64,000 bases of DNA from Acidimicrobiales bacterium (lineage in GTDB: Bacteria > Actinomycetota > Acidimicrobiia > Acidimicrobiales > Aldehydirespiratoraceae). How positions within the stretch are numbered: position 1 is the stretch's first letter; every line of letters begins with the position of its first letter. The DNA lies in contig JAJCXY010000053.1 in the NCBI GenBank assembly GCA_029263215.1, forward strand, positions 1 to 64,000, written 5' to 3'. The notes under the pieces were generated by a model. It searched no databases. It was given only the letters and a program-made list of their open reading frames with translations, and was not told the DNA's origin. Both the position numbers and the translations under genes were made by a program. Positions 5,451 through 26,944 of this stretch are shown here, one piece after another.

Positions 5451-5923
5451 TGGCGGAACGCGTTCTGGCCCTCCGGGTGAACGGAGAGACTCATCGCGTG
5501 CTCACCAGCGACCACCGCACCCTGCTCGAAGTTCTACGGGAAGATCTCGCCCTCACCGGCACAAAGCACGGCTGCGACGTGGGCGAGTGCGGAGCCTGCA
5601 CCGTACTCCTCGACGGTCGGCCGGTACTCGCCTGTCTGGTGCTGGTGAGCCAGGTGGCCACCGGCTCGGTCACCACCATCGAGGGACTCGTCGAGGGCGG
5701 GAAACCCCACGAGCTTCAGAGCGCATTTGCCGAGCTGGGAGCAGCCCAGTGCGGCTACTGCACTCCCGGCATGATCCTGTCGGCCAGCGCCCTGCTCGAC
5801 GAGGTGGCCCAGCCCGACACCGATGAGATCAAGGCGGCCTTGACCGGCAACCTCTGCCGGTGCACCGGCTACAACAAGATCATCGAGGCGGTCGAACTGG
5901 CGGCCGATCGGGGCCAGTTGTGA
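5450..5923 (+). CDS. hcrC: 4-hydroxybenzoyl-CoA reductase gamma subunit ([2Fe-2S]2)
   Basis: KHGCDVGECGACTVLLDGRPVLAC and QCGYCTPGMI...CRCTGY ferredoxin and C-terminal [2Fe-2S] motifs; ATGA overlap with upstream gene; followed by alpha and beta subunits. Confidence 0.85.
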   Translation: MAERVLALRVNGETHRVLTSDHRTLLEVLREDLALTGTKHGCDVGECGACTVLLDGRPVLACLVLVSQVATGSVTTIEGLVEGGKPHELQSAFAELGAAQCGYCTPGMILSASALLDEVAQPDTDEIKAALTGNLCRCTGYNKIIEAVELAADRGQL

Positions 5924-9293: not shown

Positions 9294-10357
9294 TGGAACC
9301 ACGCACCGATCGATACTCCTGGCGCATGGTGGGCCCCGACCAGCCCCTCGAGCGGGCTGAGGGCGCGGCGCGTCCCCCCGAGGATGGAGAGGTACTCGTC
9401 GAGATCGCCGGATGCGGGGTGTGTCACACCGACATCGGGTTCCTCGATGGAGATGTGAAGACCGTGGCCCCCCTGCCCCTCGTTCTCGGCCACGAGATCA
9501 GCGGCCATGTCGTCGAAGCCGGCGCCGGCGCCGAGTCCTGGATGGGCCGCGACGTACTGATTCCCGCAGTAATTCCCTGCGGCAACTGCGACCTCTGTTC
9601 GGCGGGCCGCTCGAACGTATGCCAAGAAGCACTGATGCCCGGAAACGACTTCGATGGCGGTTTCGCCAGCCATGTGACCGTTCCCGCCGCGGGCCTCTCG
9701 GTCATCGACGAACTGCCGCCCGGACTCGAACTGGCCGACCTGTGTGTAATCGCCGACGCGGTCACCACCCCCCTACAGGCGATGAAACGTGCGGAGGTGG
9801 CTGCTGGAGACTTCGTGGTGGTGGTCGGAGCGGGAGGGGTGGGCACCTACGCCGTGCAGATCGCCGCGGCCTACGGAGCGAATGTGGTGGCGATCGACAT
9901 CGACGACTCGCGCCTCGAACCTCTACTCCAGCACGGCGCAAGCGCAACCGTGAACGCCAGAGGGCTGTCGCCCCGAGAAGTGCGCGACCAGGTTCGTGCC
10001 CACGCGTCAGCGCTCGGTGCGCCGCGAACCGGTTGGAAGATCATGGAGTGTTCGGGAAGCTCGTCGGGCCAGGAGACCGCTTACGGCCTACTGGTTCCCG
10101 CCGCCATCCTCGGCGTGGTCGGCTTCACCCGCGACAAGGTGTCGATAAGGCTCTCCAACCTCATGGCCTTCGACGCCACCGCCATCGGCAACTGGGGTTG
10201 CCCGATCGAGCTCTACCCCGAAGCCGTCGAACTGGTCACCTCCGGCAAGATCGAAGTACTTCCTTTCACCCGCAAGGTCGCCATGAGCGAGATCAACACC
10301 GTGATGGCCGATGTGCACGAGGGCAACGATCCTCGGCGAACAATTCTCATCCCCTAA
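9293..10357 (+). CDS. had: 6-hydroxycyclohex-1-ene-1-carbonyl-CoA dehydrogenase
   Basis: Zn-alcohol dehydrogenase fold (GCGVCHTDIGFLDGDVKT...GHEISGHV, CGNCDLCSAGRSNVCQ, GAGGVGTYAVQIA) in operon with oah and dch. Confidence 0.85.
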   Translation: MEPRTDRYSWRMVGPDQPLERAEGAARPPEDGEVLVEIAGCGVCHTDIGFLDGDVKTVAPLPLVLGHEISGHVVEAGAGAESWMGRDVLIPAVIPCGNCDLCSAGRSNVCQEALMPGNDFDGGFASHVTVPAAGLSVIDELPPGLELADLCVIADAVTTPLQAMKRAEVAAGDFVVVVGAGGVGTYAVQIAAAYGANVVAIDIDDSRLEPLLQHGASATVNARGLSPREVRDQVRAHASALGAPRTGWKIMECSGSSSGQETAYGLLVPAAILGVVGFTRDKVSIRLSNLMAFDATAIGNWGCPIELYPEAVELVTSGKIEVLPFTRKVAMSEINTVMADVHEGNDPRRTILIP

Positions 10358-10369
10358 AGGAGCAATGCA

Positions 10370-11461
10370 ATGGAGTTTGTCAACCACGATCTCGACCCGA
10401 ACAAGGAGTTCAACGAGATCCTCTACGAGGAGCGACCGGTGTTCGATTCTGCCGGTGCGCCGGTGGAAGGTCTCCACTCGGTCTGGATCACCCTCGACAA
10501 CCCCGAACAGCTCAACTCGTACACCACCGGTGCCACCAAGGAAGTCATTTTTGCCTTCGGTAGGGCATCGGTGGATCGCGCCGCGGTGGCGGTGGTGTTC
10601 ACCGGTAGCGGCGACCGCTCCTTCTGCACCGGCGGCAATACCGAGGAGTACTCCGAGTACTACGCGGGCCGGCCCGGCGAGTACCGCCAGTACATGCGCC
10701 TGTTCAACGACATGGTGTCGGCGATCCTGGCCTGCGACAAGCCGGTGATCAACCGCGTCAACGGGATGCGGATCGGGGGTGGCCAGGAGATCGGAATGGC
10801 CTGCGACTTCACCCTGGCTGCCGACACCGCCCGGTTCGGCCAGGCCGGACCCAAGCACGGATCGGCTCCCGACGGAGGGTCCACCGACTTCCTGCATCTC
10901 TACGTTGGCTGGAGTGAGGCGATGGCCAGCTGTGTTCTCTGCGATCCGTGGAGCGCCCACGAGGCCATGCGCCTGGGTCTGGTCAACGACATCTTCCCGG
11001 TGCTGAAGGTCGATGGGGAGTTCGTGCCCAACCCCCTCGTGGTTACCGATCGTTACCTCGATGATTGGGGCAAGATCGTGCACGGCAAGTCGAAGGAGGG
11101 CGAGGCGCTGGCCGAGGGCAAGACAACGCTCAGGTCGGGAACAGTCGACTTCGAACTGCTCGACGCGGGGGTCGACGCAATGATCACCAAGATCCTCTAC
11201 ACCATGCCCGACTGCACCATCAAGACCGTCGAGTCGTTGCGCAAGAAGAAGCTCGAACACTGGGATCAGAACCGCGAAACCAACCGGGCCTGGCTCTCGC
11301 TCAACATGATGACGGAGGCCAAGGCGGGGTTCCAGGCCTTCCACCGCGGCTCTCGCGAGGTGGGAAGGGAGGTCGACTACATCGACCTTCGCCGTCGCCT
11401 CGCCAACGGAGAGGTGTGGGGCGACGACCTCATCGCGGCCGTCTCGCCCCAAGACTCGTGA
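10370..11461 (+). CDS. oah: 6-oxocyclohex-1-ene-1-carbonyl-CoA hydrolase (ring opening)
   Basis: Crotonase fold with long N-terminus; WITLDNPEQLNSYTTGATKEVIFAFGRASVDRAAVAVVFTGSGDRSFCTGGNTEEYSEYYAGRPGEYRQYMRLFNDMV; characteristic Oah/BamA residues. Confidence 0.9.
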   Translation: MEFVNHDLDPNKEFNEILYEERPVFDSAGAPVEGLHSVWITLDNPEQLNSYTTGATKEVIFAFGRASVDRAAVAVVFTGSGDRSFCTGGNTEEYSEYYAGRPGEYRQYMRLFNDMVSAILACDKPVINRVNGMRIGGGQEIGMACDFTLAADTARFGQAGPKHGSAPDGGSTDFLHLYVGWSEAMASCVLCDPWSAHEAMRLGLVNDIFPVLKVDGEFVPNPLVVTDRYLDDWGKIVHGKSKEGEALAEGKTTLRSGTVDFELLDAGVDAMITKILYTMPDCTIKTVESLRKKKLEHWDQNRETNRAWLSLNMMTEAKAGFQAFHRGSREVGREVDYIDLRRRLANGEVWGDDLIAAVSPQDS

Positions 11462-12219
11462 GCGGCGATCTGGTCGGTCACGACGTCTCCGACGACGGAT
11501 CGGTCCACACGATCACGCTCACCAGTCCCCCCGGCAATGTGATCGACATTGCCATGTGTGAGCGACTCGCGCCGGCCATCGCCAGTGCTGCGGAATCGAC
11601 CGACGCCAAGGTTCTGGTGTTGCGCGCCGAAGGCAAGCACTTCTCCTTCGGCGCCAGCGTGGAGGAGCATCTGCCCGACAAGGCGCCTGCGATGCTCGCC
11701 GCCCTCGGTGGGGTGATACGGCAGCTGATCGGCTTTCCCTACCCCACCATTGCCGTGGTGCAGGGCAGCTGCTTGGGTGGTGGACTCGAACTGGTCCTCG
11801 CCTGCGGCATTGTGATCGCCCACGAGGAAGCCACCCTGGCCAGCCCCGAGATCCAACTCGGGGTGATTGCCCCTGCAGCCACGGCCCTGATGGTGGGTCG
11901 GGCGGCGGAGGACCTGCTCCTTACCGGCAGGAGCGTCGGGGCCTCAGAGGCCCAGTTGATGGGGATCGTCAACATTGTGGTCGGCGACGACCTCGATGAA
12001 GCGATCGACACCTTCGTCGGTCGCCACTTCGTGAAGCGATCGCCTTTCTCGCTCAGGATGGCCACCAAGGCGGTGAGGGCCGGTCGTGTCGCCGAGGTCG
12101 AAGCCCGACTCGATGCGGCCGAGCGTCTCTATCTCGAGCAGCTCCTTCCCAGCCACGACGGAGTCGAAGGGATCAGAGCCTTCATCGACAAGCGTCCTGC
12201 CGAGTGGACCAACAGCTGA
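11458..12219 (+). CDS. dch: Cyclohexa-1,5-diene-1-carbonyl-CoA hydratase
   Basis: Crotonase family with FSFGASVEEHLPDKAPAML and CLGGGLELVLACGIVIAHEEATLASPEIQLGVIAP; GTG start overlapping oah stop. Confidence 0.85.
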   Translation: MSGDLVGHDVSDDGSVHTITLTSPPGNVIDIAMCERLAPAIASAAESTDAKVLVLRAEGKHFSFGASVEEHLPDKAPAMLAALGGVIRQLIGFPYPTIAVVQGSCLGGGLELVLACGIVIAHEEATLASPEIQLGVIAPAATALMVGRAAEDLLLTGRSVGASEAQLMGIVNIVVGDDLDEAIDTFVGRHFVKRSPFSLRMATKAVRAGRVAEVEARLDAAERLYLEQLLPSHDGVEGIRAFIDKRPAEWTNS

Positions 12220-12229
12220 GACCCGCGGC

Positions 12230-13525
12230 TCACTCAACGAAGAAGCGGCGGGCCTTCAGCTCGAACCGGGGGAGAGCTGAGCGCGGTACCCGAGTGACGG
12301 TGGGACGTAGGCCGAGAGCGGAGGCGAAGGCCTCGGCAACCTCGCGCTCGGCATCGGCCCCGTCGGTGCCGTCGCGACATTCGATCTCGATGAGCACCTC
12401 GCCCATCTCGCTACGGCTGGTGATCGTCACCCTGAACTCGTCGATGAACTGGTGGCGGCGCAGAAGGTTCTCCACCGCGGCGGGAAAGAGGTTGACCCCT
12501 CGAACCACCACCATGTCGTCGGCTCTGGCGATGATGCCCCCGGCGAATCGGGTGAACGTGCGGCCACAGGGGCACGGTGAATCGTCGATGCGCACGATGT
12601 CGCCGGTGCGGTAGCGAACCACCGGAAACCCGATGCGGCCCAGATTGGTGAGCACGAGCTCTCCCTGGCGCCCGGCATCCACCGGTCGACCAGAGTCGGG
12701 ATCGATCACCTCGACGATGAACTCACTGTCGATGGCGTGGGTGGCTCCGGTGCGCGCCTGGCAACCGAAGCTGTGAGCTCCGACCTCCGACGCGCCCGCA
12801 TGGTCGTAGCAGTGGGCCTGCCAGCCGGTCTCCAGTCGATCCCTGGTGGCGGGAATGCTCGCTCCGGTTTCGCCCGCGTGCACCATGGTGGCGATCGGAA
12901 TGCTCGACAGGTCGAACCCCTCTTCGCGGGCGATTTCGATGAGGCGCAGGGCATAGGTGGGGGTGCAGCACATAGCCGTGACGCCGAGGTCGGCCATCAA
13001 CTCGAGACGCTGGGTGGAGGTGCGACCTCCTCCAGGGATCATCATTGCTCCGACCCGTCGGGCACCGCCCAAGGCCGCCCAGAACCCGATGAAGGGTCCG
13101 AACGAGAAAGGAACGAACAGTCGATCCTTGGCGGTGACACCGGCTCCCGCCAGCACGAACCCCCAGCAGTGCCCCCACCAGTCCCAGCTTTCCACCGTGT
13201 CGAACACTCTGAGGGGCTCGCCGGTGGTGCCCGAGGTCTGGTGGATACGTGCGTAGGCATCTTCTTCGAAGGTGCAGTTGGCGCTCGAGACCCCGTCGGA
13301 CTGGGCCGCGAGCAGGTCGGCCTTGGTGGTGAACGGCAACTCGGCCAGATCATCGAAGGTGCGCACATCATCGGGGGTGGCCCCCGCGAGTTGGAGCTTC
13401 TGAGTGACGATCGGGTTCGCGCCGAAGGTCTTGGTCAACAGGGTGGCGAGCTTGGCTTCCTGGAGATCGCGCAGTCGCTCACGGGGCAGGGTCTCAATTC
13501 CCTGGTCGAAGAAGTTCGTTTCCAT
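12230..13525 (-). CDS. PaaK-type (phenylacetate-CoA ligase family) aryl-CoA ligase
   Basis: HQTSGTTGEPLRVFDTVESW, CYDHAGASEVGAHSFGC, YRTGDIVRIDDSPCPCGRTFTRFAGGIIARADDMVVVRGVNLFP; METNFFDQG... start at 13525. Confidence 0.85.
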   Translation of the reverse strand: METNFFDQGIETLPRERLRDLQEAKLATLLTKTFGANPIVTQKLQLAGATPDDVRTFDDLAELPFTTKADLLAAQSDGVSSANCTFEEDAYARIHQTSGTTGEPLRVFDTVESWDWWGHCWGFVLAGAGVTAKDRLFVPFSFGPFIGFWAALGGARRVGAMMIPGGGRTSTQRLELMADLGVTAMCCTPTYALRLIEIAREEGFDLSSIPIATMVHAGETGASIPATRDRLETGWQAHCYDHAGASEVGAHSFGCQARTGATHAIDSEFIVEVIDPDSGRPVDAGRQGELVLTNLGRIGFPVVRYRTGDIVRIDDSPCPCGRTFTRFAGGIIARADDMVVVRGVNLFPAAVENLLRRHQFIDEFRVTITSRSEMGEVLIEIECRDGTDGADAEREVAEAFASALGLRPTVTRVPRSALPRFELKARRFFVE

Positions 13526-13553
13526 CCTTCGTGTCCCGTGGGTCGGTGTTTGG

Positions 13554-13826
13554 TCAGCCCTGCTCGGCCTTGCGGGTGAACAGGGCCAGATAGGTGGAGC
13601 AGGCAGTCTCGGCGCAGCTGGTGCAGGCATCGCTGAAGCTCGCGGGATCGAGGCCGGTGGTGGTGGTCTCGAAGCCCATCGTGGAATAGAGCTCCTCCAG
13701 TTCGCCGATCCGTGATTCGTCGGAGACAGTTCGCTGTTCCCAGCCCTCGTCGGTGAGGGCGCGCGATTTCAGGACGACGATTCCCTCAGAGCAGTAGACC
13801 GGCTCGGAACCGTCCGGTTCACTCAC
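13554..13826 (-). CDS. Small (about 90 aa) Cys-containing protein of the bcr operon, function unknown
   Basis: GTG start overlaps the bcrD stop (GTGA); ...VYCSEGIVVLKSRAL...FSDACTSCAETACSTYLALFTRKAEQG. Confidence 0.65.
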   Translation of the reverse strand: MSEPDGSEPVYCSEGIVVLKSRALTDEGWEQRTVSDESRIGELEELYSTMGFETTTTGLDPASFSDACTSCAETACSTYLALFTRKAEQG

Positions 13827-14644
13827 GCGTCGGTGCCAACCAGTTCTTCGGTGCGGAGCTTCTCGAGGCGTCGGTGAGCGAGGATCGCGCAGCCGAGGGC
13901 CGATACGAACTGCACCATCTCTCCTTCGGGCACGTTGACTTCGGCATCGAGGAGCTTGCTGACCGAGGTGCCCATGGTCTCGAAGCGCAGAATCCCACCG
14001 ATGAGGGTGTATTCGGGTTCGGCCCGAACCCTTTTCATGAGCTGAACTGAGCGGCCGGTGAGCGATTCGATCGCCCCCTGCATGATGTCGGCCGGCGGGG
14101 TGCCCAACGACAGGTGGTTGATCACCTCAGATTCGGCGAACACGGCGCATACCCCCGAGATCGGCACCGGCTCCTTCGAGGTGGTCATCAGGGCACTGAT
14201 CTCCTCGGTGCCGAATCCCATGTAGCGAGCGGTTTTCTCGAGGAAGGCTCCGGTGCCGGCGGCGCACTTGTCGTTGAGCCGGAACGACACCACCTTCGCG
14301 ACCTCATCGACGCGACTGGCCTTCATGGTCTGGCCGCCCACGTCGAGAATCGTGCGGGTGCCGGGAAACAGGTGGCAGGCGCCGCGGGCGCTGGCGGTGA
14401 GATCGGTGACGTGCAGGTCCTTGAAGTCGACCTGGTGGCGACCCGAGCCGGTGGCGATCACGTAGGCGATGTCGGCCCGATCGACACCTGCGTCGTCAAG
14501 AGCTCGTTGGTATACGTCGTGGGCTACCTCTCGGAGCTTGAACCCGGTGGGAGACAGGGCCTTTCCGACGATCTGCTGGTCGTCGGTGAGGATCACCGCC
14601 TTGGCATAGGTGGAGCCGATGTCGAGCCCGGCTGTGATGGTCAT
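13823..14644 (-). CDS. bcrD: Class I benzoyl-CoA reductase subunit D (ASKHA ATPase)
   Basis: [22 protein letters not shown]..., [45 protein letters not shown] overlap with bcrA. Confidence 0.9.
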
Positions 14645-15456
14645 GAGTTGGCTCCGGTTTCTGCGGGCGTACGAGCCGCCAGGATGTTGTCGAGGGCAAA
14701 CATGGCGGCACCGAGTGCGCCCATGTAATGGCAGTCCTCGCTGATGTTGAGCTTCTTCTCCAGGCGATCCTCGAGGGCCTTGACCATGCCCTGGTTGCGC
14801 GAAACCCCTCCGGTGAACGTGATCTCGTCCTCGATCCCCACCCTGCGCATCAGGCCGGCCGAGCGAGAAGCGATCGACTTGTGCACCCCCCACAGGATGT
14901 CTTCGATCTTCTTGCCCTTACCGATCCAGGCGAGTACTTCTGATTCGGCGAAGACGGTGCAGGTGGTGCTGATCTTGATCGGCTTGGTGCTCTGGAGGGA
15001 GACGGGGCCGAGGTCGTCGAGGGGAATGTCGAGGGCGGCCGAGGCCGCTCCCAGGAAGCGCCCGGTACCCGCCGCACACTTGTCGTTCATGCAGAAGTCG
15101 GTAATCTCGCCGTCGGCGGTGACCGAGATCGCTTTCGTGTCCTGGCCCCCCATGTCGACCACGGTGCGGGTGTTGGGAAACAGGTGCACCGCGCCACGGC
15201 CGTGGCAGCTGATCTCGGTGACCTGGCTGTCGCCGAAGGTGACCCGGTAGCGGCCGTAGCCGGTACCGATGACGTACTTGACGTCGTCGCGGTTGATGTC
15301 GCCCTCCGTGAGCGCCTCGGCGAAGGCATCCTCGGCGGCCTGGATGACGTTGGCGCCGGTGTCGAGGAGCGCTCGACCCACGATCTTGGCGTCTTCGTCG
15401 ATGATGATTGCCTTGGTCTGGGTCGAACCGACGTCGACGCCTGCTGCGTATGCCAT
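14641..15456 (-). CDS. bcrA: Class I benzoyl-CoA reductase subunit A (ASKHA ATPase)
   Basis: [22 protein letters not shown]..., [48 protein letters not shown]. Confidence 0.9.
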
Positions 15457-15461
15457 GAGCT

Positions 15462-16766
15462 TCAGTCCTTCGGGCCGGCTTGGGCCATTTGTCGACGGGA
15501 TGCCAATCCTTCGAAGAAGGCATCGATTCGGTTCTTCATCTGGGCTTCGGAGACGACACGTCGGTCCATCATGTCGGACTCGATGAACAGGCTCGGTGTG
15601 CCGGTCTTCTCGGTGAGGCTGCGGCGGCCGTCGGCGAGGCCGGTGGACACGGTGCGACAGCTCTTGATGGGGTGGTAGATGACTCCGTCGGCGTGATGAT
15701 CGGCGATCATCTGCTCGAGCACGGTGTCTTGGTGGAACATCGAATCCATGGCGTCACGCACGGAGACGAGCATCCCTTCGGCGAGGCTGGCCAGCGGATC
15801 GTTGAGGTCGTACTCGAACCCCCGGTTGGTGCCTCCCGATGCGAACCACAGGTAGGTGGAGTTCACGAAGGTGCCGCCCCATTCGCTGAACAGTTCGTTG
15901 AATCGGCGGAAGATCGGGTAGCAGGGAACGCCCACGAACAGGAGGCGGTATTGCTCGTCCATGTCCTGGCCGAGCCCATTGGCCACCTTGTATTCCATTT
16001 CCTCGACGAGGCGCTCGAAGTAGCGAGCACCCTCTTCGGTGCCCCGGAATCCGTTGGCGACTCCGAGGTAGATCGTGCCGTCGGTGAGGGCGTTGAACAC
16101 CGAGGGCCGTGCCGAGTTGAGCTCGAGCATCCGGCTCCAGCAGCGGGTCATGGTGTTGGCGTGGCCGAGGATGTCGCGGAACTTGTCGATGTCGAAGCTC
16201 TTGCCGGTGACCTGCTCACAAACGGTGATCAGCTCTCGGAGCTGGACCTCGACGTACTTCCGGTCGGCTTCGAAGTCGGCGTTGCCGGCCCAGGTCTGGC
16301 CGCCGGCCTGGCGGGTGCCGGGAACGTCGATGGTGTACATGGGAGTGCCGTACATGCGCTCCCAGATCTCGGCCCATTTGATGTAGGTGTTGCAGGCGTT
16401 GGTGAGTACCGAGATGGTGGGCTTGGGGAGTCGGCCCATGGGGTGATCGCCGCCCCGGAGCTGCACTGCGACGTCGGCCTTGACGTAGCCGCAGATATCG
16501 GGCGAGTAGCCGTAGTCCTCGGCTTCTTCGAGAAGCTCGTGGGCGACGTGGCGTACCGCGGTTTGTAGCGAGGTGATCTCGGGAAACACCACCGGTAGGT
16601 CGAATGTCTTCAAGATCTCGTTACAGCTGCCCATGACGAATACGTAGGCGGCCTCGCCGCCGGTCTTCGCGGTTTCGCCGAGTTCGGCGAACCAGTCGCG
16701 AAACAGGGCGGCGCCTTCGATATTTCCTCGCCCCACCAGTTCGTGGGTGTCTTCAAGAGTGCTCAT
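15462..16766 (-). CDS. bcrB: Class I benzoyl-CoA reductase subunit B
   Basis: HgdB/BcrB family: [74 protein letters not shown]. Confidence 0.9.
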
Positions 16767-16794
16767 AGTCCCCTCCTCGAGGTTGGGATCGTGC

Positions 16795-17970
16795 TCATGC
16801 GAACAGCAGATTCTCGACGAAGGTCTCGACCTGCATCTCGAGCTGGCTGAACGACGTCATGTTCTCTTCGAATTCGCTCACGAAGTAGGCGATGCCTTCA
16901 TCGTCGAGAGCGTGGGTGTAGGTGACCTGCTCCTCGAGCCCGGGTTCGCACATCTTGGCGGCCGCGAGGATGGCGGCATCGGCTCGGGCCTCGTTGATGC
17001 GGGCGATGAGCATCTTCTCCTTGGGTTTGCGGTCGTCGTGTTGCACCGGGCTGTAGGACGACTGCTCGATGTAGGCCTCGGCCAGGTTGCGCAGGGGGTC
17101 GCCTTGGGTGTCGACGTCGCTAGTGATCCAGCGCATTCCGATGTGGAAGTCGTCGTCGACCACATAGCAGGTGCGCCCGAGCATGCGGATGAGATCGAAG
17201 GGGGGTTGCTCGCAGAATCCGCCCTCGAACACCACCCGAATCCGGTCTTCCTGCTTGGTGGAGCGCTCCCGGATTTGGGGGAGAAGGGTGGCGAGGAGCT
17301 CATTGTGCTCTTCGCGGGGGATCATCCCGGCCAACGACACCAGGGCATAGGCGTCCTCGGCGGCGATCAGCCAGGGTTGCTCGCGTTTGATGTCGTAGAG
17401 CTCACGCATCAGGCGTCGGTTTTCGTTGAAGACGGCGACGGAATGGGCGAGATCGTCGTCGCTGATCTCGCGGCCGGCTACCTCCTCGACGACACGGCGG
17501 ATTCGGTCGTACTCGTGGCGCAGGTAATCGACGCTCCCCGCCGAATTGGGGTTTTGGGGGAGGTAGAGAATCTGGCACGGGTAGTCGAAGTTGCGGCCCC
17601 AGATCGCAGCCAGGTTGCGGGCGGCATCGCAGATGGGATGGGAGACGAACATGTCGAACTGCACCCGGTCGCTGAGCGCCAACTCGAGGGAGGTCTTCAG
17701 GATCGAGCAGAGGTAGGAACCGAAGTGGGAGTCGGCGAGGTCGGGCTCGGTGGGAGCTCCGCGCACCTTGAAGGGGAGCATGCCGGCGGCGTGGATGATC
17801 TCTTCGGGGAACGACACCTGGAAGTGGCCGGCCACCTTGCCGCCTGCATCGCGCCAGCGGTTCACGGTCTCGAAATCGGGGGACTCGACCTGGTCGCGGC
17901 ATTCGAGAAGGGCATCGTCGAGTGATTTGCCGCGCCATTCGGGGAAGGTGACAGTGGTGGTGGGGGTCAT
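16795..17970 (-). CDS. bcrC: Class I benzoyl-CoA reductase subunit C
   Basis: HgdB/BcrC family: GHFQVSFPEEIIHAAGMLPFKVRGAPTEPDLADSHFGSYLCSILKTSLELAL, VSHPICDAARNLAAIW; followed by bcrB, bcrA and bcrD. Confidence 0.9.
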   Translation of the reverse strand: MTPTTTVTFPEWRGKSLDDALLECRDQVESPDFETVNRWRDAGGKVAGHFQVSFPEEIIHAAGMLPFKVRGAPTEPDLADSHFGSYLCSILKTSLELALSDRVQFDMFVSHPICDAARNLAAIWGRNFDYPCQILYLPQNPNSAGSVDYLRHEYDRIRRVVEEVAGREISDDDLAHSVAVFNENRRLMRELYDIKREQPWLIAAEDAYALVSLAGMIPREEHNELLATLLPQIRERSTKQEDRIRVVFEGGFCEQPPFDLIRMLGRTCYVVDDDFHIGMRWITSDVDTQGDPLRNLAEAYIEQSSYSPVQHDDRKPKEKMLIARINEARADAAILAAAKMCEPGLEEQVTYTHALDDEGIAYFVSEFEENMTSFSQLEMQVETFVENLLFA

Positions 17971-18692: not shown

Positions 18693-19259
18693 ATGACAGA
18701 CGCCCAGGCGACCCCCACCGCGCTACTCCGACAGGAGCACGAGCTGATCCTCGAGATTGCCGGTGCGCTCGCGGCGGTGCTCGACGAGCCTGGCGATGTC
18801 GACTACGACGAGATCGAACGCTGTGTCACCTTCTTTCGACTCTTCGCCGATGCCTGCCACCACGGCAAGGAAGAAGACCTGCTTTTCCCGGCCCTCGAAG
18901 CGAACGGGATGCCTCAAGAGGGGGGTCCTGTTGCCGTGATGCTCTTCGAGCACGATGAAGGCCGTGAGCTGGTGCGAGAAATGAGCGATTCGCTGACGCC
19001 GGCCCGAGCAGGAGACGAGGGGGCCGCAGAAAACCTCAGAACTGCCGCGTTCGGATTCGTGGAGTTGATCACCGCCCACATCTCCAAGGAAAACAACATC
19101 TTGTTCGAGATGGCAGACCGGCTCATCGAGGGTGCCGACAAGGTCGAGTTGCTCTCTGCCTACGGTGCCACCGCCGATTCTCGCTACGAGGGCCACTCCA
19201 AACCAGAGCTCGAACAGATCGCCGCCGGAATCCTCCAGCGCCGGTCGCCTAGAGGCTGA
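18693..19259 (+). CDS. Hemerythrin (HHE domain) protein
   Basis: RQEHELILEIAGAL, ADACHHGKEEDLLFPALE, LFEHDEGRELVREM, ITAHISKENNILFEMAD. Confidence 0.85.
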   Translation: MTDAQATPTALLRQEHELILEIAGALAAVLDEPGDVDYDEIERCVTFFRLFADACHHGKEEDLLFPALEANGMPQEGGPVAVMLFEHDEGRELVREMSDSLTPARAGDEGAAENLRTAAFGFVELITAHISKENNILFEMADRLIEGADKVELLSAYGATADSRYEGHSKPELEQIAAGILQRRSPRG

Positions 19260-19815
19260 CCCACCCGTCGGGCGGTGGGCCCTTCCCGGGGTGTACCTCA
19301 GCGCAGTCGGGGCAGGTGCGCGCCTCGATGTCGTCGTGGAACGAGTCGTAGACCACCGGCAACACCTTCACGATGTTGGCCGGCTCGCCCAAGGGAAGCT
19401 CAACGCGGTGAACCATCGTGCCGCAGTTGAAGCAGTACCACTGGAAGGCTTCCTTCATGCCGTACATGCGTGGCGACTCGACCACAATCCCAACCGATCC
19501 CTCCTGAGGCCTCTGGGGAGCGTGGACGGTGTGGGCTTCCATCATGAACACTTCGCCCTCGCGGATGGGGACGTCGTAGATTTCTCCGTCCTCCGCGATC
19601 TTCAGCATCATGTCGCCCTTGACCTGAAAGAACCACTCCTCGACGGGGTCGTCGTGGAAATCCACGCGGGTGTTGGGCCCGCCGACCACCATCACGATCA
19701 TCCCCGAGTCGTGGTGCAGCAACTGATTGTTGACCGGAGGCTTCAGCCGATCCTGGTTGTCTTCGACCCACTTCTGGAAGTTGAAGGGAGTGAGGGTTGG
19801 ATGGAGTTTGCCCAT
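19249..19815 (-). CDS. nbaC: 3-hydroxyanthranilate 3,4-dioxygenase
   Basis: FNFQKWVEDNQDRLKPPVNNQLL, VVGGPNTRVDFHDDPVEEWFFQVKGDMMLKI, C-terminal rubredoxin-like YCFNCGT...CPDC. Confidence 0.85.
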   Translation of the reverse strand: MGKLHPTLTPFNFQKWVEDNQDRLKPPVNNQLLHHDSGMIVMVVGGPNTRVDFHDDPVEEWFFQVKGDMMLKIAEDGEIYDVPIREGEVFMMEAHTVHAPQRPQEGSVGIVVESPRMYGMKEAFQWYCFNCGTMVHRVELPLGEPANIVKVLPVVYDSFHDDIEARTCPDCAEVHPGKGPPPDGWVSL

Positions 19816-19964: not shown

Positions 19965-20912
19965 ATGAGCGATACCACACTCACGGTTGTCGCGATCGGT
20001 GGCAATTCGCTGCTCGACCCCGACCTCGAGCCGACGGTGGCCAACCAGTTCGCGGTCACCGCCGAGGCCATGGAGCCGGTCGCCGACCTTCTCGAGCGGG
20101 GCGAGCATCTGGTGCTCACCCACGGAAACGGGCCCCAGGTCGGGTTCCTCCAGCTTCGTTCGGAATTGGCTCGCGACTCCGTACATGAGGTGCCTCTCGA
20201 TTCTCTGGTTGCCGATACCCAGGGGGCGATGGGCTACATGATCGAGCGTGCCCTGCGCACCGCACTTCGGGAGCGGGGTCTCGACCTGCCGGTGGTCACG
20301 ATCGTCACCGAGGTGGAGGTCGACTCCGCCGACCCTGGCTTCGCCCAGCCCGACAAGCCGATCGGGCGTTTCTACGAAAAGGCCGAGGCCGAGGCTCTCG
20401 CCGCCGATCACGGCTGGACTCTGATGGAAGATCCCCGGCGCGGTCATCGCCGGGTTGTGGCGTCGCCCTCACCAAAACGAATAATGCAGTTGTCCACCAT
20501 CGAGCAGCTGGTCGACATGGGTGTCACCGTCATCTGCTGCGGCGGCGGCGGAGTGCCGGTGGCTCGCGGCGTCGACGGCACCCTCCGGGGGGCTGAGGCA
20601 GTCATCGACAAGGACCGGGTCAGCGCCATGCTCGCGTCCCAACTCGGCGCCGATCGACTGGTGATAACCACCGGCGTCGAATACGTCTTCGAGGACTACT
20701 ACTCCGACGACCCGATCCCCCGCCCCTTGCTGTCGATCGACGAGGCCCAAGAGATGGCGACGGCCGGCCAATTCGCGGCGGGCAGCATGGCCCCCAAGAT
20801 GGAGGCAGCCGTCAGCTATCTCGAGGCGGTCGATGGTGTGGCCCTGGTGTGTCTTCCCCGCGATCTCGTGTCTGCCATCGACGGGCAGACCGGCACTCGA
20901 ATTCATCGATGA
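19965..20912 (+). CDS. arcC: Carbamate kinase
   Basis: VVAIGGNSLL, VLTHGNGPQVGFL, ICCGGGGVPVAR, GAEAVIDKDRVSAMLASQLGAD, GSMAPKMEAA. Confidence 0.9.
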   Translation: MSDTTLTVVAIGGNSLLDPDLEPTVANQFAVTAEAMEPVADLLERGEHLVLTHGNGPQVGFLQLRSELARDSVHEVPLDSLVADTQGAMGYMIERALRTALRERGLDLPVVTIVTEVEVDSADPGFAQPDKPIGRFYEKAEAEALAADHGWTLMEDPRRGHRRVVASPSPKRIMQLSTIEQLVDMGVTVICCGGGGVPVARGVDGTLRGAEAVIDKDRVSAMLASQLGADRLVITTGVEYVFEDYYSDDPIPRPLLSIDEAQEMATAGQFAAGSMAPKMEAAVSYLEAVDGVALVCLPRDLVSAIDGQTGTRIHR

Positions 20913-20923
20913 TAGGAGAGTAA

Positions 20924-22072
20924 GTGAACCCCATGAGCCTTCTGGAGGCGCTCGATCAGAGCGATCTCGACGCGGTCTACAAGCGCAGCCTTCTCACCAC
21001 CCAGGGGTGGTCCGACGCCGATCTGGCGTCGATCCGATCGCTGGCCCGCACTCTTGCCGGCTTCGATCGCGCTGGTCTGTCGACGAGCCTGTGCCCGTCG
21101 GAATTGGCGTGGGCCGTTTTCTTCGACCAGTCGACTCGCACGAAGAGCGCGTGGGCCGGGGCTGCTTCGCGTCTCGGCATGCAGCCCGTGATCGTCGACG
21201 GCTCGTCCACCCAGGTCTCCCACGGTGAAACCGCGGTGGAGACCGGCGCGATGCTGGGGATGAATGCCCACGCGATGGGGATCAGGCACGACCTGATCCT
21301 CGGCGAGGGCAACACCTTCATCCGCGACATCACCCAAGGGATCGACGACTACCTCGCGGCCACCGACGACCCTCGGGCCGTGCCGGTGGTCAACCTCCAG
21401 TGCGATGTCGATCACCCCACCCAGTCCATGGCCGACTTGATGTGGCTCGAAGAGAAGTTCGGTGATCTCGCCGGAAAGAAGATCGCGGTGAGTTGGGCCT
21501 ACTCGCCGTCGTACGCCAAGCCCTTGTCGGTGCCCCAGGGTCTAGCCACCCTGCTCACCCGTTTCGGGGCCGATGTGACCCTGGCCCATCCCCCCGGCTA
21601 TCAGCTCATCGACGAGTGTATGGATGCTGCCCACGCCAATGCGGCCAACGGTGGATCGTTCCGGGTGGTCGACGACATGGACGAAGCCTTTGCCGATGCC
21701 GACATCGTCTACCCCAAGAGTTGGGGGGCCTACGACCTGATGCTCGAACGGGTCGACGCCAACGCCACCGGCGACACAGAGGGGTTGGCCGCAGTCGAAC
21801 AGAAGGCGCTGGCCCGCAATGCCGAGCACACCGACTGGATCTGCGATGAACGGCGGATGGGCCTCACTGCGGCGGGCGAGGCCCTCTACATGCACTGCCT
21901 GCCCGCCGACATCGGTGCGGAGGTGAGCCCGGGAGTGATGGACAAGTACAAGGTCGATGTGGCCCGGGAGGCCAACTACAAGGTTTATGTGGTGATGGCC
22001 CTGCTGGCCGCGGCCAAGGTGCCCGACATCGCCGCCCGACTGACAGAAATAGCCGAGGAGGCTTCCCAGTGA
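20924..22072 (+). CDS. ygeW: YgeW-like knotted carbamoyltransferase
   Basis: FFDQSTRTKSAWAGAASRLGM, LQCDVDHPTQSMADLMWLEEKFG, HCLPADIGAEVSPGVMDKYKVDVAREANYKVYV. Confidence 0.8.
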   Translation: MNPMSLLEALDQSDLDAVYKRSLLTTQGWSDADLASIRSLARTLAGFDRAGLSTSLCPSELAWAVFFDQSTRTKSAWAGAASRLGMQPVIVDGSSTQVSHGETAVETGAMLGMNAHAMGIRHDLILGEGNTFIRDITQGIDDYLAATDDPRAVPVVNLQCDVDHPTQSMADLMWLEEKFGDLAGKKIAVSWAYSPSYAKPLSVPQGLATLLTRFGADVTLAHPPGYQLIDECMDAAHANAANGGSFRVVDDMDEAFADADIVYPKSWGAYDLMLERVDANATGDTEGLAAVEQKALARNAEHTDWICDERRMGLTAAGEALYMHCLPADIGAEVSPGVMDKYKVDVAREANYKVYVVMALLAAAKVPDIAARLTEIAEEASQ

Positions 22073-23607
22073 CCAGTCTTGATACCCGCGTTGCCGAGCT
22101 CAGTGCCCAGTACCTGCCGCTGGCCGCCGAGATCCTGAAGGAGTGCATCCGCATCCCCGCCGACTATGTCGACCGCCCGGTCGATGAGGGAGGCGACCCC
22201 GACTGTGGCCTCAGCAATCATGAGGGACCCCGGCTTGAGTATCTGCACGACAAGATCATCGAGATCGGCGCGGTGCGTTCGCCTGCCGATGTGGGATTCG
22301 ACCCCTACGGCAACCTGGTCTGGTCGGTCGAGGATCCCGACGACGGCATCCCCCGCAGCGAGAAGCGTGTCGTCTACTTCGACGGCCACTCCGACACCGT
22401 CAAGGCGTTGAGGAGTACCTGGGCCGACAAGCTCGGAGGGATCGACGCCTACGACGGCATGGTCGACCCTTCCGCGATCGATCGCGACTATCTGCGCAGC
22501 GAGCTCGGTCATCTTCCTCCCGACGACGAATGGGATCAGCTGATCTTCGGGCGGGGATCCGCCGACCAGTTGGGTGGAGTGGTGTCGGAGGTGCTGGCCA
22601 CCAAGATCGCGTTGGAATTGGCCGATGAGGGTGCCCTGCGCGGCGTGATCGTGAGGGCCTACGCCACCGCCTGCGAAGAGGACAACGACGGCGGCGGCCC
22701 CATGTATCTCATGCGTGAGGTCCTGCCGGGCGCCGGGCCCGAACTCGTCCCCGACGTGGTGATCCTCACCGAAGGCACCGGCGATGCCCACAAGGGCGCG
22801 CTCGGTATCTATCGAGGCCAGCGCGGGCGCATGCAGATCGAGGTCACGGTCACGGGCCGTTCGTGTCATGGTTCGATGCCGTGGGAGGGTCTCAACCCAC
22901 TTGAGCATGGTGGCGCGATGGTGGCGGAGGCGGCTCGCCGCTACGGAGAGGGTGAAGGTTTCCTCGATGATCCGTTCCTGGGGGCGGGAAGTCGCACCGC
23001 TTCGTGGGCCACCTTGGAGTCGCCGAGCGATTGCGCGGTGCCCGATCGGTTCACCTTCCGCTTCGACCGGCGCCTGACGGTGGGCGAGACGCCCGAGCAG
23101 GCTCTGGCCGACATCGAGGCCCTAGATGCGGTTCGAGTGGCTCGGGAGGCCGGGCTCACCGTCGACATCGCCGTTCCGGTCTACGACCAGGCCACGTGGA
23201 AGGGCTACACGCTCGGGAATCCTCAGGTCTACATGGGCTGGGCTACTCCGGAAGACCATTCCTCGCTTCGGGTTGCGGCGTCGGTCTACGAGGATGTCGT
23301 TTCGCCCAACCTCACGCCGAGCCCGGTCGATGATGGGGGGTTGAGGTCCGAGGCCCGCGTCGATCGATGGATTTTCTCCACCGACGGTGTGGGTTTCCCG
23401 GTCCCGTCCGACGACACATCGATCGATGTCCCTTCTTCGAAGGCGTGGGTGGATGCCGGCAAGTATCGCCACCCCGCGATGTTCGGGTTCGGTCCCGGCA
23501 TCGAGCACAACACCCACAAGATCGGTGAGTGCGTCGACCAGCGTGAGCTCAGGCTCGTAATCGCGTTCCTGGCCCGATATCCGAGCGCCTATGCGGAAGG
23601 TGTTTGA
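22069..23607 (+). CDS. ygeY: YgeY-like M20-family deacetylase/peptidase
   Basis: LSNHEGPRLEYL, RVVYFDGHSDTVKALRSTWADK, FGRGSADQLGGVVSEVLATKIALELADEGALRGVIVRAYATACEEDNDGG; ATGA/GTGA-type overlap with ygeW stop. Confidence 0.75.
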   Translation: MTSLDTRVAELSAQYLPLAAEILKECIRIPADYVDRPVDEGGDPDCGLSNHEGPRLEYLHDKIIEIGAVRSPADVGFDPYGNLVWSVEDPDDGIPRSEKRVVYFDGHSDTVKALRSTWADKLGGIDAYDGMVDPSAIDRDYLRSELGHLPPDDEWDQLIFGRGSADQLGGVVSEVLATKIALELADEGALRGVIVRAYATACEEDNDGGGPMYLMREVLPGAGPELVPDVVILTEGTGDAHKGALGIYRGQRGRMQIEVTVTGRSCHGSMPWEGLNPLEHGGAMVAEAARRYGEGEGFLDDPFLGAGSRTASWATLESPSDCAVPDRFTFRFDRRLTVGETPEQALADIEALDAVRVAREAGLTVDIAVPVYDQATWKGYTLGNPQVYMGWATPEDHSSLRVAASVYEDVVSPNLTPSPVDDGGLRSEARVDRWIFSTDGVGFPVPSDDTSIDVPSSKAWVDAGKYRHPAMFGFGPGIEHNTHKIGECVDQRELRLVIAFLARYPSAYAEGV

Positions 23608-23609
23608 GT

Positions 23610-23625
23610 CTTGCTCTAGAGTAAG
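23610..23625. promoter_or_regulatory. 16-bp palindrome just upstream of the TetR-thioesterase fusion gene
   Basis: CTTGCTCTAGAGTAAG (one mismatched pair), 5 bp from the ATG at 23631. Confidence 0.5.
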
Positions 23626-23630
23626 CCTCT

Positions 23631-24677
23631 ATGGAGAGCACCAGGGACAGAATTCTCAACCGCGCACTGGAGATACTGAGCGGCGCCGAGTCGGCGTCGT
23701 TCACTATGCAGGCTCTGGCCGAGGATCTGGATCTGTCGAGTGGCAGCGTCTTTCACGCCTTCCCCACCCGGAGATCCCTGGTGGCGTCAGCCTTCGCGGC
23801 GGGAATCGCCCGCTACCACGAGGCGGTCATCGAAGCGATCGGGGGCTCCGACGACCCCCGTGACTCCGTGCGTTCGTTCGTGGCCGCCCATCTCGATTGG
23901 GTGGAGGCCAACGCCGGCCTGGCCCGTTTCCTGTTCACATCGCAGCCCGACGACGTGGCGGGTGAGGCATCGGAGCTGGCCGGCGCCAGCAACGACAGGT
24001 TCGCCTTGGTACAGGCCGAACTGTTCGGTGTCCTCGCCCACGGTGGAGCCATGGCCGACATCGATCCGCGTCTGGCTCACTCGCTCGCAATCGGTCCCAG
24101 CCAGGAGTACTGCCGCAAGTGGCTTCGAGGCACAGCTTCGATCCCTCCGAGCCAGGTCGCCTCCACCCTGCAGGTCGGTGCGCTGGCGGCGTTGGCAGCG
24201 ACACTCGCCGCCGGCCCCGAAGCCTCGGCCGAGCCGGCGTTCACTCCACCCACGAAAGCTCCCGGGCCCGGTGAGTTGACGTATCAGGGGGCGGTCTATC
24301 CGTGGCATCTCGACCACATGGGCCACATGAACGTCATGTGGTACGACTCGAAGTTCGATGAGGCGACGTGGCATTTCTTCGCTGCCCTCGGCCTCACCCC
24401 GCCCCGGCTACGAGACGAGCACCGCGGGATGGCCGCCATCGAACAGCACATCAAGTACCTCTCCGAACTCCACGCCGGCGACCTGGTGGAGATCAGGACC
24501 CGAATGCTCGAACAACACGACAAGGTGCTGATCTTCGAGCACGAGATGATCGACACGGTCACCCGAGAGGTCGCGGCCACTAGCAAGCTGACCGGGATCC
24601 ATCTCGACACTGAGGCGCGCCGCTCTCAGTCGCTCCCAGAGGATGTGAAGCAAGCGGCCTCGGACCTGATCGGCTAG
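23631..24677 (+). CDS. Fusion protein: TetR-type HTH regulator (about aa 1-195) + hotdog-fold (4HBT-like) acyl-CoA thioesterase (about aa 215-348)
   Basis: N-terminus TRDRILNRALEILSGAESASFTMQALAEDLDLSSGSVFHAFPTRRSLV (TetR HTH); C-terminus YPWHLDHMGHMNVMWYDSKFDEATWHFFAALGL...EQHIKYLSELHAGDLVEIRTRML (hotdog thioesterase); single uninterrupted 348-aa ORF. Confidence 0.8.
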   Translation: MESTRDRILNRALEILSGAESASFTMQALAEDLDLSSGSVFHAFPTRRSLVASAFAAGIARYHEAVIEAIGGSDDPRDSVRSFVAAHLDWVEANAGLARFLFTSQPDDVAGEASELAGASNDRFALVQAELFGVLAHGGAMADIDPRLAHSLAIGPSQEYCRKWLRGTASIPPSQVASTLQVGALAALAATLAAGPEASAEPAFTPPTKAPGPGELTYQGAVYPWHLDHMGHMNVMWYDSKFDEATWHFFAALGLTPPRLRDEHRGMAAIEQHIKYLSELHAGDLVEIRTRMLEQHDKVLIFEHEMIDTVTREVAATSKLTGIHLDTEARRSQSLPEDVKQAASDLIG

Positions 24678-24690
24678 TCACTGTGCCTTT

Positions 24691-24734
24691 GGGCCGGATG
24701 TCGTGAAAGTATGACCGTCGGGTCGATCCGGCCC
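24691..24734. repeat. Inverted repeat, 9-bp perfect arms, 26-nt loop
   Basis: GGGCCGGAT (24691-24699) and ATCCGGCCC (24726-24734) between the fusion gene and the ligase. Confidence 0.5.
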
Positions 24735-24757: not shown

Positions 24758-26281
24758 ATGCACGATCAGTTCAATGCGAGCGAATGGATGCTCGACCGCC
24801 ACGTCGCTGCCGGCGATGGCCAGCGGGTGGCAGTTCGTTGCGAGGGTGAGAGCCTCACCTATGAGGAGCTTCAGGGTCTGGTGAGCCGCACGGCCGGGGC
24901 TCTTCGGGCCATCGGGGTGAGGTCGGAGGAGAGGGTCGCGATGGCGATGCTCGACTCCGTCGAGTTCATCTCCGTCTTCCTCGGAGCAATGCGTATCGGT
25001 GCGGTGCCGGTGCCGATGAATCCCCTGCTCCCGGGGCGTGATCTCGGCGTAATTGTGGCCGACTCGCGGGCTCGGGTCGTGGTGGTCTCCGATGAGAAGA
25101 GCGCAGCCATAGGTGAGCTGAAGTCTGGAGCGCCGGAGCTCGAGCATGTCGTCACTACCGGCAACCGCGGTGACAGCGGGGCGACCATGTCGTGGGCGGC
25201 GTTCCAGGAAGGGGAAGGCGACCAGTCGCTCTATCCCACATCCGCGGAGTCGCCCGGGTTCTGGCTGTGCACGTCGGGCTCGACGGGCCACCCCAAGCTG
25301 GCGATGCATCGGCACGGAGATCTGCGAGTCACCTACGACACCTACGCGCGAAATGTTCTCGAAGTGAATAGCGACGACCGCTTCTTCTCGGTCGGGCCGA
25401 TGTTTCACGCCTATGGCCTCGGCAACTCGATCAGTTTCCCGTTCGCGGTCGGCGCCACGTCGATCATCGAATCCACCCGTCCGCCCACGCCCCAGCTCGT
25501 GGCCGACATCGTCACCACGGAGAAACCCACCCTGTTCTTCTGCATCCCCACCTTCTATGCCGCCCTCAACGCCGCATCGCTTCCCGCCGACACTTTCGCC
25601 TCGGTCCGGTGGGGGGCCTCCGCTGCCGAGCAGCTTCCGGCGGAGACCTTCCTGCGCTTCGAGGAGAACTACGGGGTCACCATCCTCGACGGAATCGGCT
25701 CCACCGAGATGCTTCACATCTATATGTCGAACTCAGCCGAGCACCGTTTGCCCGGCACCAGCGGCGTGCCGGTGCCCGGGTACGAGGTGAGAGTGGCCGA
25801 CGAGGCCGGCAGCGACGTGGCTGCGGGTGAGCCGGGCCAGTTGCTCGTACGCGGCGACTCGACCGCCACCGGTTACTGGTGCCGCAGCGAAACCTCCCGC
25901 TCCACCTTCGTGGGCGAATGGCTACATACCGGCGACCTCTACACCCGTACCGACGACGGCTTCCACACCTATCTCGGCCGTATCGACGACATGCTCCGCG
26001 TCGGTGGTGAATGGGTGTCGCCGGCGGAGGTGGAGGGGGTCCTCATCTCTCATCCAGGGGTGCTCGAAGCGGCGGTCGTCGGCGAACGCGACGAGTCCGA
26101 CATTCTCAGGCCCATCGCCTACCTGATTCCTGCCGGCGAGAGCCAACTCGATCCCGAGGAGCTCACCCAGTTCTGCCGTGAGCGTCTGGCCGGATACAAA
26201 CGCCCAAAGCGCTTCGAGATAGTTGCCGAGTTGCCCAAGACGGCCACGGGCAAGATCCAGCGCTACAAGCTGCGCGCCTGA
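24758..26281 (+). CDS. Benzoate/4-hydroxybenzoate-CoA ligase-like AMP-dependent ligase
   Basis: FWLCTSGSTGHPKLAMHRHGDL, FFSVGPMFHAYGLGNSISFPFAVGAT, LDGIGSTEMLHIYMSN, LHTGDLYTRTDDGFHTYLGRIDDMLRVGGEWVSPAEVEGVL, LPKTATGKIQRYKLR; typical of the benzoate-CoA ligase family. Confidence 0.8.
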   Translation: MHDQFNASEWMLDRHVAAGDGQRVAVRCEGESLTYEELQGLVSRTAGALRAIGVRSEERVAMAMLDSVEFISVFLGAMRIGAVPVPMNPLLPGRDLGVIVADSRARVVVVSDEKSAAIGELKSGAPELEHVVTTGNRGDSGATMSWAAFQEGEGDQSLYPTSAESPGFWLCTSGSTGHPKLAMHRHGDLRVTYDTYARNVLEVNSDDRFFSVGPMFHAYGLGNSISFPFAVGATSIIESTRPPTPQLVADIVTTEKPTLFFCIPTFYAALNAASLPADTFASVRWGASAAEQLPAETFLRFEENYGVTILDGIGSTEMLHIYMSNSAEHRLPGTSGVPVPGYEVRVADEAGSDVAAGEPGQLLVRGDSTATGYWCRSETSRSTFVGEWLHTGDLYTRTDDGFHTYLGRIDDMLRVGGEWVSPAEVEGVLISHPGVLEAAVVGERDESDILRPIAYLIPAGESQLDPEELTQFCRERLAGYKRPKRFEIVAELPKTATGKIQRYKLRA

Positions 26282-26290
26282 GCAGCGGGG

Positions 26291-26890
26291 TCAGGCCCGA
26301 GGCAGGAGCCCGAGGCCGACGACGTCGTTGAGGATGTCGAGCCACGACTCGAGCTGGCCGGTGTCGGTGGCGGTGAGGCCGCTGCGGACGATGGCCCAAC
26401 CGATTTCGAACAACACAGCCGCAGTGGGTGCGGGGTCGATGTCGGCTCGCACACTGCCCTCCGACTTGCCGACGGTGAGCATGTCCTCGAGTACCGCGCG
26501 GATTCGCTGCCGCTGACGTTCGGCGGCCATGCGGGCCACGTCGCCCCCGACGAGGTCGGTCTCGCCGAAGAGGGAGGAATGGAGCAACTCGTCGTGGCCA
26601 TAGTGGTCGGCGGTGAGCTCAACCAGGGCGCGGAGGCGCTCCGGTGCGGTGCCCGGCCTGGCGACAACCTGCTCGGCACTGTCGATGAACCGATCGAGTG
26701 ACCGCTCGACGACGGCCATGTAGACGTCTTGCTTGGACTCGAAGTGGAGGTAGACGCTGCCCTTGCCGGTGCTTGCCTCGGTGGCGATGTCTTCGATGGT
26801 GGTGCGCTTGTAGCCGAAGCGTCGGAAGCGGGTCTCGGCCGCGGCGAGGAGCCGGCCCCGTGGGTTTTCTTCGATCATCGTGGACGTCAC
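26291..26890 (-). CDS. TetR-family transcriptional regulator
   Basis: RGRLLAAAETRFRRFGYKRTTIEDIATEASTGKGSVYLHFESKQDVY HTH. Confidence 0.85.
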   Translation of the reverse strand: MTSTMIEENPRGRLLAAAETRFRRFGYKRTTIEDIATEASTGKGSVYLHFESKQDVYMAVVERSLDRFIDSAEQVVARPGTAPERLRALVELTADHYGHDELLHSSLFGETDLVGGDVARMAAERQRQRIRAVLEDMLTVGKSEGSVRADIDPAPTAAVLFEIGWAIVRSGLTATDTGQLESWLDILNDVVGLGLLPRA

Positions 26891-26917: not shown

Positions 26918-26944
26918 ACTGACCAGATTACTAGTTTGGTCAGT
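26918..26944. promoter_or_regulatory. Operator-like inverted repeat between tetR and acyl-CoA dehydrogenase
   Basis: ACTGACCA-N11-TGGTCAGT, perfect 8-bp arms in the divergent intergenic region. Confidence 0.65.

Follow-up and report, generated by a model that had tools for sequence, protein, structure and literature searches.

A probable natural fusion of a TetR-type regulator and a hotdog thioesterase beside a benzoate-CoA ligase gene in an Acidimicrobiales bacterium

Regulators that combine a DNA-binding domain with a domain of enzyme fold have been described in CoA-thioester biology. In FapR of Bacillus and its relatives, a DeoR-like helix-turn-helix (HTH) is followed on the same chain by a hotdog domain acting as a non-catalytic sensor (PMC516016). 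The benzoyl-CoA pathway regulators BzdR/BoxR associate an HTH-XRE domain with an enzyme-derived, shikimate-kinase-like domain; BzdR senses benzoyl-CoA, the natural form is devoid of enzyme activity, and Q1, an engineered chimera, reportedly acted both as regulator and as enzyme (PMC3602430). Catalysis has thus been lost in both natural enzyme-fold regulators cited here. Since 70 kinds of companion domains have already been counted on TetR regulators in 761 genomes (PMC5882156), an unusual TetR partner alone is not unheard of. In carnitine 3-dehydrogenase-thioesterase fusions, one of which is encoded in the source genome of this study, a C-terminal thioesterase of 4HBT_2 type is carried by another protein. 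No characterised TetR-thioesterase fusion was found in the open-licence literature searched.

The locus analyzed here lies in a 64,000-nucleotide stretch of an Acidimicrobiales genome (the window) and encodes a predicted TetR regulator followed by a hotdog thioesterase (Table 1). It joins the enzyme-containing regulators in principle, while being a member of neither the FapR nor the BzdR family, its halves being an ordinary TetR and an ordinary 4HBT_2 protein. Unlike FapR, it has a TetR-type HTH in place of the DeoR-like one, a ligand domain belonging to the TetR half and a hotdog domain with an intact catalytic motif; Pfam and fold results revealed neither the HTH-XRE nor the shikimate-kinase-like domain of BzdR/BoxR. 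It also differs from the carnitine 3-dehydrogenase fusions, whose thioesterase is from another branch (~25-30% identity) and is attached to an enzyme. Our preferred reading, to which we give somewhat less than an even chance, is that of a self-repressing benzoate-activation switch whose functional thioesterase acts on aryl-/acyl-CoA, either hydrolysing the signal or recycling CoA.

Table 1. Coordinates of the features described at the fusion locus (positions in the window).
Feature	Position	Strand	Description
TetR-thioesterase fusion gene	23631-24677	+	One ORF, 348 aa, ATG start, TAG stop
TetR-type regulator half	23631-24230, residues 1-200	+	HTH ~8-53, helical ligand/dimer domain to ~199
Ala/Pro/Glu/Thr-rich linker	24225-24275, residues 199-215	+	From sequence; pLDDT is low where the TetR model ends and where the thioesterase model starts
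Hotdog 4HBT_2 thioesterase half	24276-24674, residues 216-348	+	Pfam, AlphaFold2, free homologs
Active-site motif HLDHMGHMNVMWY	24306-24344, residues 226-238	+	D228, G231, H232, N234, Y238
Predicted tandem operator	23603-23632	.	Two overlapping 17-bp palindromes at a 13-bp spacing, extending into the ATG
9-bp perfect inverted repeat GGGCCGGAT ... ATCCGGCCC	24691-24734	.	Between fusion and ligase genes; no T-run
Benzoate-CoA ligase	24758-26281	+	TIGR02262, 536 bits vs cut-off 375; 80 bp downstream of the fusion gene

The initial annotation had described a single ORF joining the two domains through a Pro-rich linker, and both points were confirmed. According to codon statistics, coding-frame scores were positive across both halves in frame 0 only, both folds were modelled with confidence, and the Pro/Ala-rich stretch covers approximately the residues given in Table 1. 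Within the linker, frame 0 was again the best by a small margin (+1.1, the other frames scoring -16.6 and -2.9); this evidence for a single frame is modest, yet consistent, and it speaks against a frame change within the linker. The sole nearby candidate for an internal start of the thioesterase half is a TTG at 24276-24278. An assembly or sequencing error fusing two adjacent genes would be in line with the origin of the sequence from a single genome assembled in 131 contigs, with the separate nature of every relative and with a TGA of the neighbouring frame located right at the thioesterase start (24277-24279). However, the coding frame is 0 on either side of the joint and best in the linker, homopolymers at the joint do not exceed 3 bases, and the linker composition is fusion-like. 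Such an error is therefore highly improbable, and the one-frame fusion is well supported, on the sequence evidence, as a real gene.

A second ORF spanning both halves was then sought in overlapping genome samples of the order (199 + 398), family (51), class (396) and phylum (398), amounting to ~1,000 distinct genomes, in 72,556 plasmid records and in one scan of genome contigs, and none was found. This single occurrence among the genomes and plasmids searched was counted against the preferred reading. All close relatives of either half in the genomes searched are separate proteins. The closest free thioesterases (45-48% identity, ~140-150 aa) begin with METYRG, IETYRG or MTYRG exactly at the GELTYQG of the fusion, so that the fusion point coincides with their start, and the closest TetR relative is a free 198-aa protein, 37-40% identical, from a genome of the same family (L070 in G229). 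Long frames at three thioesterase matches (L047, L049, L052) were discarded as spurious upstream extensions without TetR, and the other long thioesterase-bearing frames turned out to be carnitine dehydrogenase fusions. Separate genes in all relatives had been named in the initial annotation as a sign of an artificial joint; this is literally what was observed, yet the clean reading frame argues against an error. Together, the separate relatives and the clean frame favour a recent lineage-specific fusion. Most simply, it would represent the lineage-specific joining of two ordinary genes, probably a TetR gene and a neighbouring free thioesterase gene.

Because the C-terminal parts of the TetR proteins were misplaced when the two halves were aligned jointly, each half was aligned and folded on its own, and no claim is made on how they are arranged relative to each other. 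The Pfam TetR_N match at residues 8-53 reached 20.4 bits, under the cut-off of 24, which was counted against the preferred reading; the free relative L070 clears this cut-off with 32.7 bits. Despite this sub-threshold score, the assignment of residues 1-200 to the TetR-type regulators is secure in view of a phmmer match of residues 3-173 to the solved TetR-type regulator 2GEN (63.9 bits, E 1.4e-16) and of the modelled fold, which bears out the HTH and helical domain initially annotated. Indeed, the AlphaFold2 model (pLDDT 95.7) is all-helical with a C-terminal ligand/dimer domain, and its top fold match is again 2GEN (TM 0.78-0.83). PfmR, FadR, FasR, AibR and KstR2 were the other best fold matches. 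Structure-entry titles report AibR with isovaleryl-CoA and FadR with stearoyl- or lauroyl-CoA, and KstR2 and FasR are also CoA-ester sensors. These CoA-ester-sensing TetRs (FadR of Bacillus/Thermus, AibR, KstR2 and FasR) share the fold of the N-terminal 200 residues of the fusion, but the matched chains are all without an enzyme domain.

The C-terminal half matched Pfam 4HBT_2 well above the cut-off (74.7 bits, cut-off 25.5, residues 224-342), and its AlphaFold2 model (pLDDT 92.6) adopts a hotdog fold. Fold matches included SAV2348 (TM 0.85), YbgC, 2HLJ and the gentisyl-CoA thioesterase BH1999, an aryl-CoA enzyme that was also among the sequence matches. The half thus resembles the YbgC/FadM/4HBT_2 thioesterases in fold and active-site motif, whereas SAV2348, 2HLJ and BH1999 are free enzymes, untethered to a regulator. 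The catalytic D-x-x-G-H-x-N-x-x-x-Y motif is present, and a comparison with 20 free or related enzymes gave H232, N234, Y238 and E279 as invariant and D228 and G231 as conserved in at least 90%. The full 4HBT-like thioesterase with its active-site residues proposed in the initial annotation was thereby recovered, and this half apparently represents a putative enzyme on CoA thioesters with an intact catalytic motif. The nearest characterised thioesterases act on varied substrates at an identity below 30%, which was counted against the preferred reading, and a resemblance to the betainyl-CoA-type domains forming the tail of carnitine dehydrogenase was also observed. By analogy with FapR, whose hotdog domain was turned into a CoA-ester sensor (PMC516016), the hotdog half could be a non-enzymatic, ligand-binding domain of the regulator. 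Such a role is very unlikely, given that the residues of the catalytic motif are all kept at the positions conserved in free enzymes and that a full ligand domain is already provided by the TetR half.

Upstream of the gene, the palindrome noted in the initial annotation 5 bp ahead of the start codon (CTTGCTCTAGAGTAAG, 23610-23625) was found at its place, but as part of the larger double site of Table 1, which consists of TTTGAGTCTTGCTCTAG (23603-23619) and CTAGAGTAAGCCTCTAT (23616-23632) and follows the consensus CTAGARTnnnAYTCTAR with a 13-bp period. Taken alone, this palindrome is weak evidence: palindromes as good occur at 57 of the 63,985 window positions, and a 16-bp palindrome of this quality is found within 60 bp of 3 of the 63 window genes. 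Inside a double operator shared with other genes, it goes well beyond chance. The same motif, often doubled with the 13-bp period, directly precedes the start of many separate TetR relatives (L070, L072, L073, L074, L106, L057/L123, L122 and L125), as illustrated by the sites upstream of L070 (CTAGAGGCAGGCTCTAGAGTCATACTCTAATG), L072 (CTAGAACAGGATTCTAGAATCGTGTTCTAATG), L057/L123 (CTAGAATATGATTCTAGAATAATGTTCTAGTAATG) and the fusion gene in the window (TTTGAGTCTTGCTCTAGAGTAAGCCTCTATG). The motif was defined from L070, L072, L073 and, in its first version, the window. Among loci inspected only after this definition, scores out of 14 were 14 for L057/L123, 14 for L122, 13 for L125 and 11 for L126; L106 and L074, which had been seen in the same listing as the motif sources and were unused in defining the motif, scored 12 and 11. 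A score of 11 was reached by 4 of 385 background genes, all of them divergent neighbours sharing the intergenic region of a TetR relative. The motif is not carried by the TetR relatives L071, L075, L076, L124, L127 and L128 and hence marks part of a wider family; its absence from L071, L075, L076 and L124 was counted against the preferred reading.

Within the window, the site at 23616-23632 scored 12 out of 14, the top value among 127,968 17-mers. Over the whole genome (4.05 Mb), a search allowing up to 2 mismatches returned only the fusion gene's own site and one non-CTAG site. A wide regulon was rejected, the 16-bp palindrome and the 17-bp operator occurring essentially at the fusion gene alone genome-wide. 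The predicted operator is well supported as a site shared by a TetR subfamily, and the conservation of the double palindrome at the fusion gene and at its relatives favours the dimeric binding of a palindromic operator typical of TetR regulators. Because a tandem operator of this subfamily type covers the start of its own gene, self-control by the TetR half is very probable, and autorepression with local control would be the simplest conclusion from the operator. The TAGAGT at 23617-23622, within the operator, could be a candidate -10 element of a leaderless transcript; a sigma-70 promoter scan of the region gave no match. The motif offers a way into a TetR subfamily, so far uncharacterised, with links to thioester metabolism; in this subfamily, tandem CTAGARTnnnAYTCTAG sites with a 13-bp period were observed at L122:5989-6018, L123:1226-1255, L125:2069-2098 and in L072. 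At L125, the tandem operator precedes an SDR gene, which itself precedes the TetR gene. Besides, another inverted repeat of 13 bp (ACTGACCAGATTA / TAGTTTGGTCAGT, 26918-26944) lies in the window between a second TetR gene (26291-26890, minus strand) and an acyl-CoA dehydrogenase gene starting at 26968, and is a candidate operator of this second TetR.

Downstream of the fusion, the gene initially annotated as an aryl-CoA ligase was indeed assigned to the benzoate-CoA ligase family (Table 1), and it likely belongs to the same transcription unit as the fusion gene. No terminator was called between the two genes, where the 9-bp inverted repeat possibly represents a candidate RNA hairpin. Control of the ligase presumes co-transcription across the 80 bp holding this repeat, and the operator is located only at the fusion's own gene, which was counted against the preferred reading. 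Ligase orthologs in the order are 61-71% identical and often occur in aerobic box clusters, beside boxB, boxC and a PaaX-type regulator, with BoxB and BoxC neighbours exceeding their cut-offs (TIGR03225, TIGR03222). In the source genome, PaaX, boxC and boxB are found on contig C81 without an adjoining ligase, and the fusion adjoins the ligase at the place where relatives often have the PaaX regulator. The window also contains matches to 4-hydroxybenzoyl-CoA reductase, to benzoyl-CoA reductase subunits and to the Dch, Had and Oah steps; the cut-offs are exceeded for Had and Oah, and the remaining benzoyl-CoA pathway matches are under the equivalog cut-offs. A TetR-like regulator co-transcribed with catabolic genes is reported for the Gram-positive bad-ali clusters (PMC9795900).

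The region upstream of the fusion was also inspected. Genes for breaking down benzoyl-CoA anaerobically (HcrABC-like, Had, Oah, Dch, BcrABCD-like) span 5450-17970, the same genome having the aerobic boxBC on contig C81, and a 3-hydroxyanthranilate 3,4-dioxygenase gene (19249-19815; NF009763, 235 bits, cut-off 220) lies beside the benzoyl-CoA reductase genes. It is followed at 19965-23607 by genes for a carbamate kinase, a YgeW-like carbamoyltransferase and a YgeY-like M20 hydrolase, with a 23-bp gap to the fusion gene. The fusion could thus be unrelated to benzoate, either as part of this carbamate kinase/YgeW/YgeY-like run, whose last gene is on the same strand and ends at 23607, only 23 bp away, or through action on another acyl-CoA, in line with the betainyl-CoA-type resemblance of its thioesterase half. 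To our knowledge, no CoA ester is expected from the YgeW/YgeY gene set. The adjoining benzoate-CoA ligase gene and an operator at the fusion's own start, which points to a separate promoter, make this explanation improbable.

For the benzoate-activation switch, we infer how the ligand, catalysis and feedback of the fusion protein could be connected. Direct sequence support exists for a predicted single polypeptide carrying the TetR regulator and the hotdog thioesterase with its intact motif, for the putative operator of the TetR half over its own gene start, and for the predicted benzoate-CoA ligase as the next co-directional gene in a benzoyl-CoA degradation region. The TetR pocket would bind an aryl-/acyl-CoA, with benzoyl-CoA or a close derivative as the most likely ligand, and the operator would then be released, allowing expression of the fusion gene and of the downstream ligase. 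Hydrolysis of this CoA ester or a related one by the thioesterase would free CoA and lower the inducer, so that the switch would reset. The single frame, the conserved catalytic residues, the CoA-ester-sensing fold neighbours, the shared operator and the thioesterase pairings described below were counted in favour of this reading, as were the identity of the ligase, the aromatic context, the PaaX-like placement and the BH1999 match. A more specific form, in which the fused thioesterase destroys the very inducer sensed by the TetR half and a thioesterase tetramer possibly bridges two TetR dimers on the operator, is rather unlikely. If the self-resetting reading were true, sensing, response and reset would be located on one chain. 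The initial annotation, which had proposed a self-resetting CoA-thioester sensor, is partly supported; its alternative, a thioesterase whose location would be set by DNA binding, is neither favoured nor disfavoured by the observations. If the fusion keeps both a complete TetR sensor and an apparently live enzyme, nature would offer an instance of the bifunctional intermediate that was engineered for BzdR, and it would become possible to ask directly if a regulator removes the inducer to which it responds.

TetR relatives of the fusion were also found beside genes of thioester metabolism. In Nocardia farcinica (L124:2992-4034), the TetR gene and a hotdog thioesterase gene share 4 bp (ATGA), and in G458 (L074:5630-6693) the two genes are divergent; the thioesterases of these pairs are 52% identical and the TetRs 41% identical. 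Enoyl-CoA hydratase genes adjoin TetR relatives in L070, L076 and L120. The paired thioesterases are of the 4HBT/PaaI type, a hotdog subfamily different from the 4HBT_2 of the fusion, which was counted against the preferred reading and indicates that the TetR-thioesterase association is functional, not ancestral. The main rival to the preferred reading, and nearly as likely, is a fusion of convenience with independent halves: the TetR half would control its transcription unit in response to a ligand of its own, and the thioesterase would simply accompany it at a fixed ratio, recycling CoA for the benzoate pathway. This possibility is consistent with the flexible linker, with the resemblance of each half to a complete independent protein and with the N. 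farcinica arrangement, where separate TetR and thioesterase genes share one operon. Against it, TetR relatives controlling thioester genes suggest, though not directly, that the ligand may be a substrate.

Two further arrangements were observed around free thioesterases. At L069:5383-6438, a TetR gene is followed on its own strand, after 69 bp, by the gene for a free homolog of the fusion's thioesterase; this TetR belongs to a different subfamily (16.5 bits to the TetR half of the fusion), and the locus was rejected as an instance of the same pair. At L111:4375-6350 (G000 contig C3), a free betainyl-CoA-type thioesterase gene adjoins a carnitine dehydrogenase-thioesterase fusion gene.
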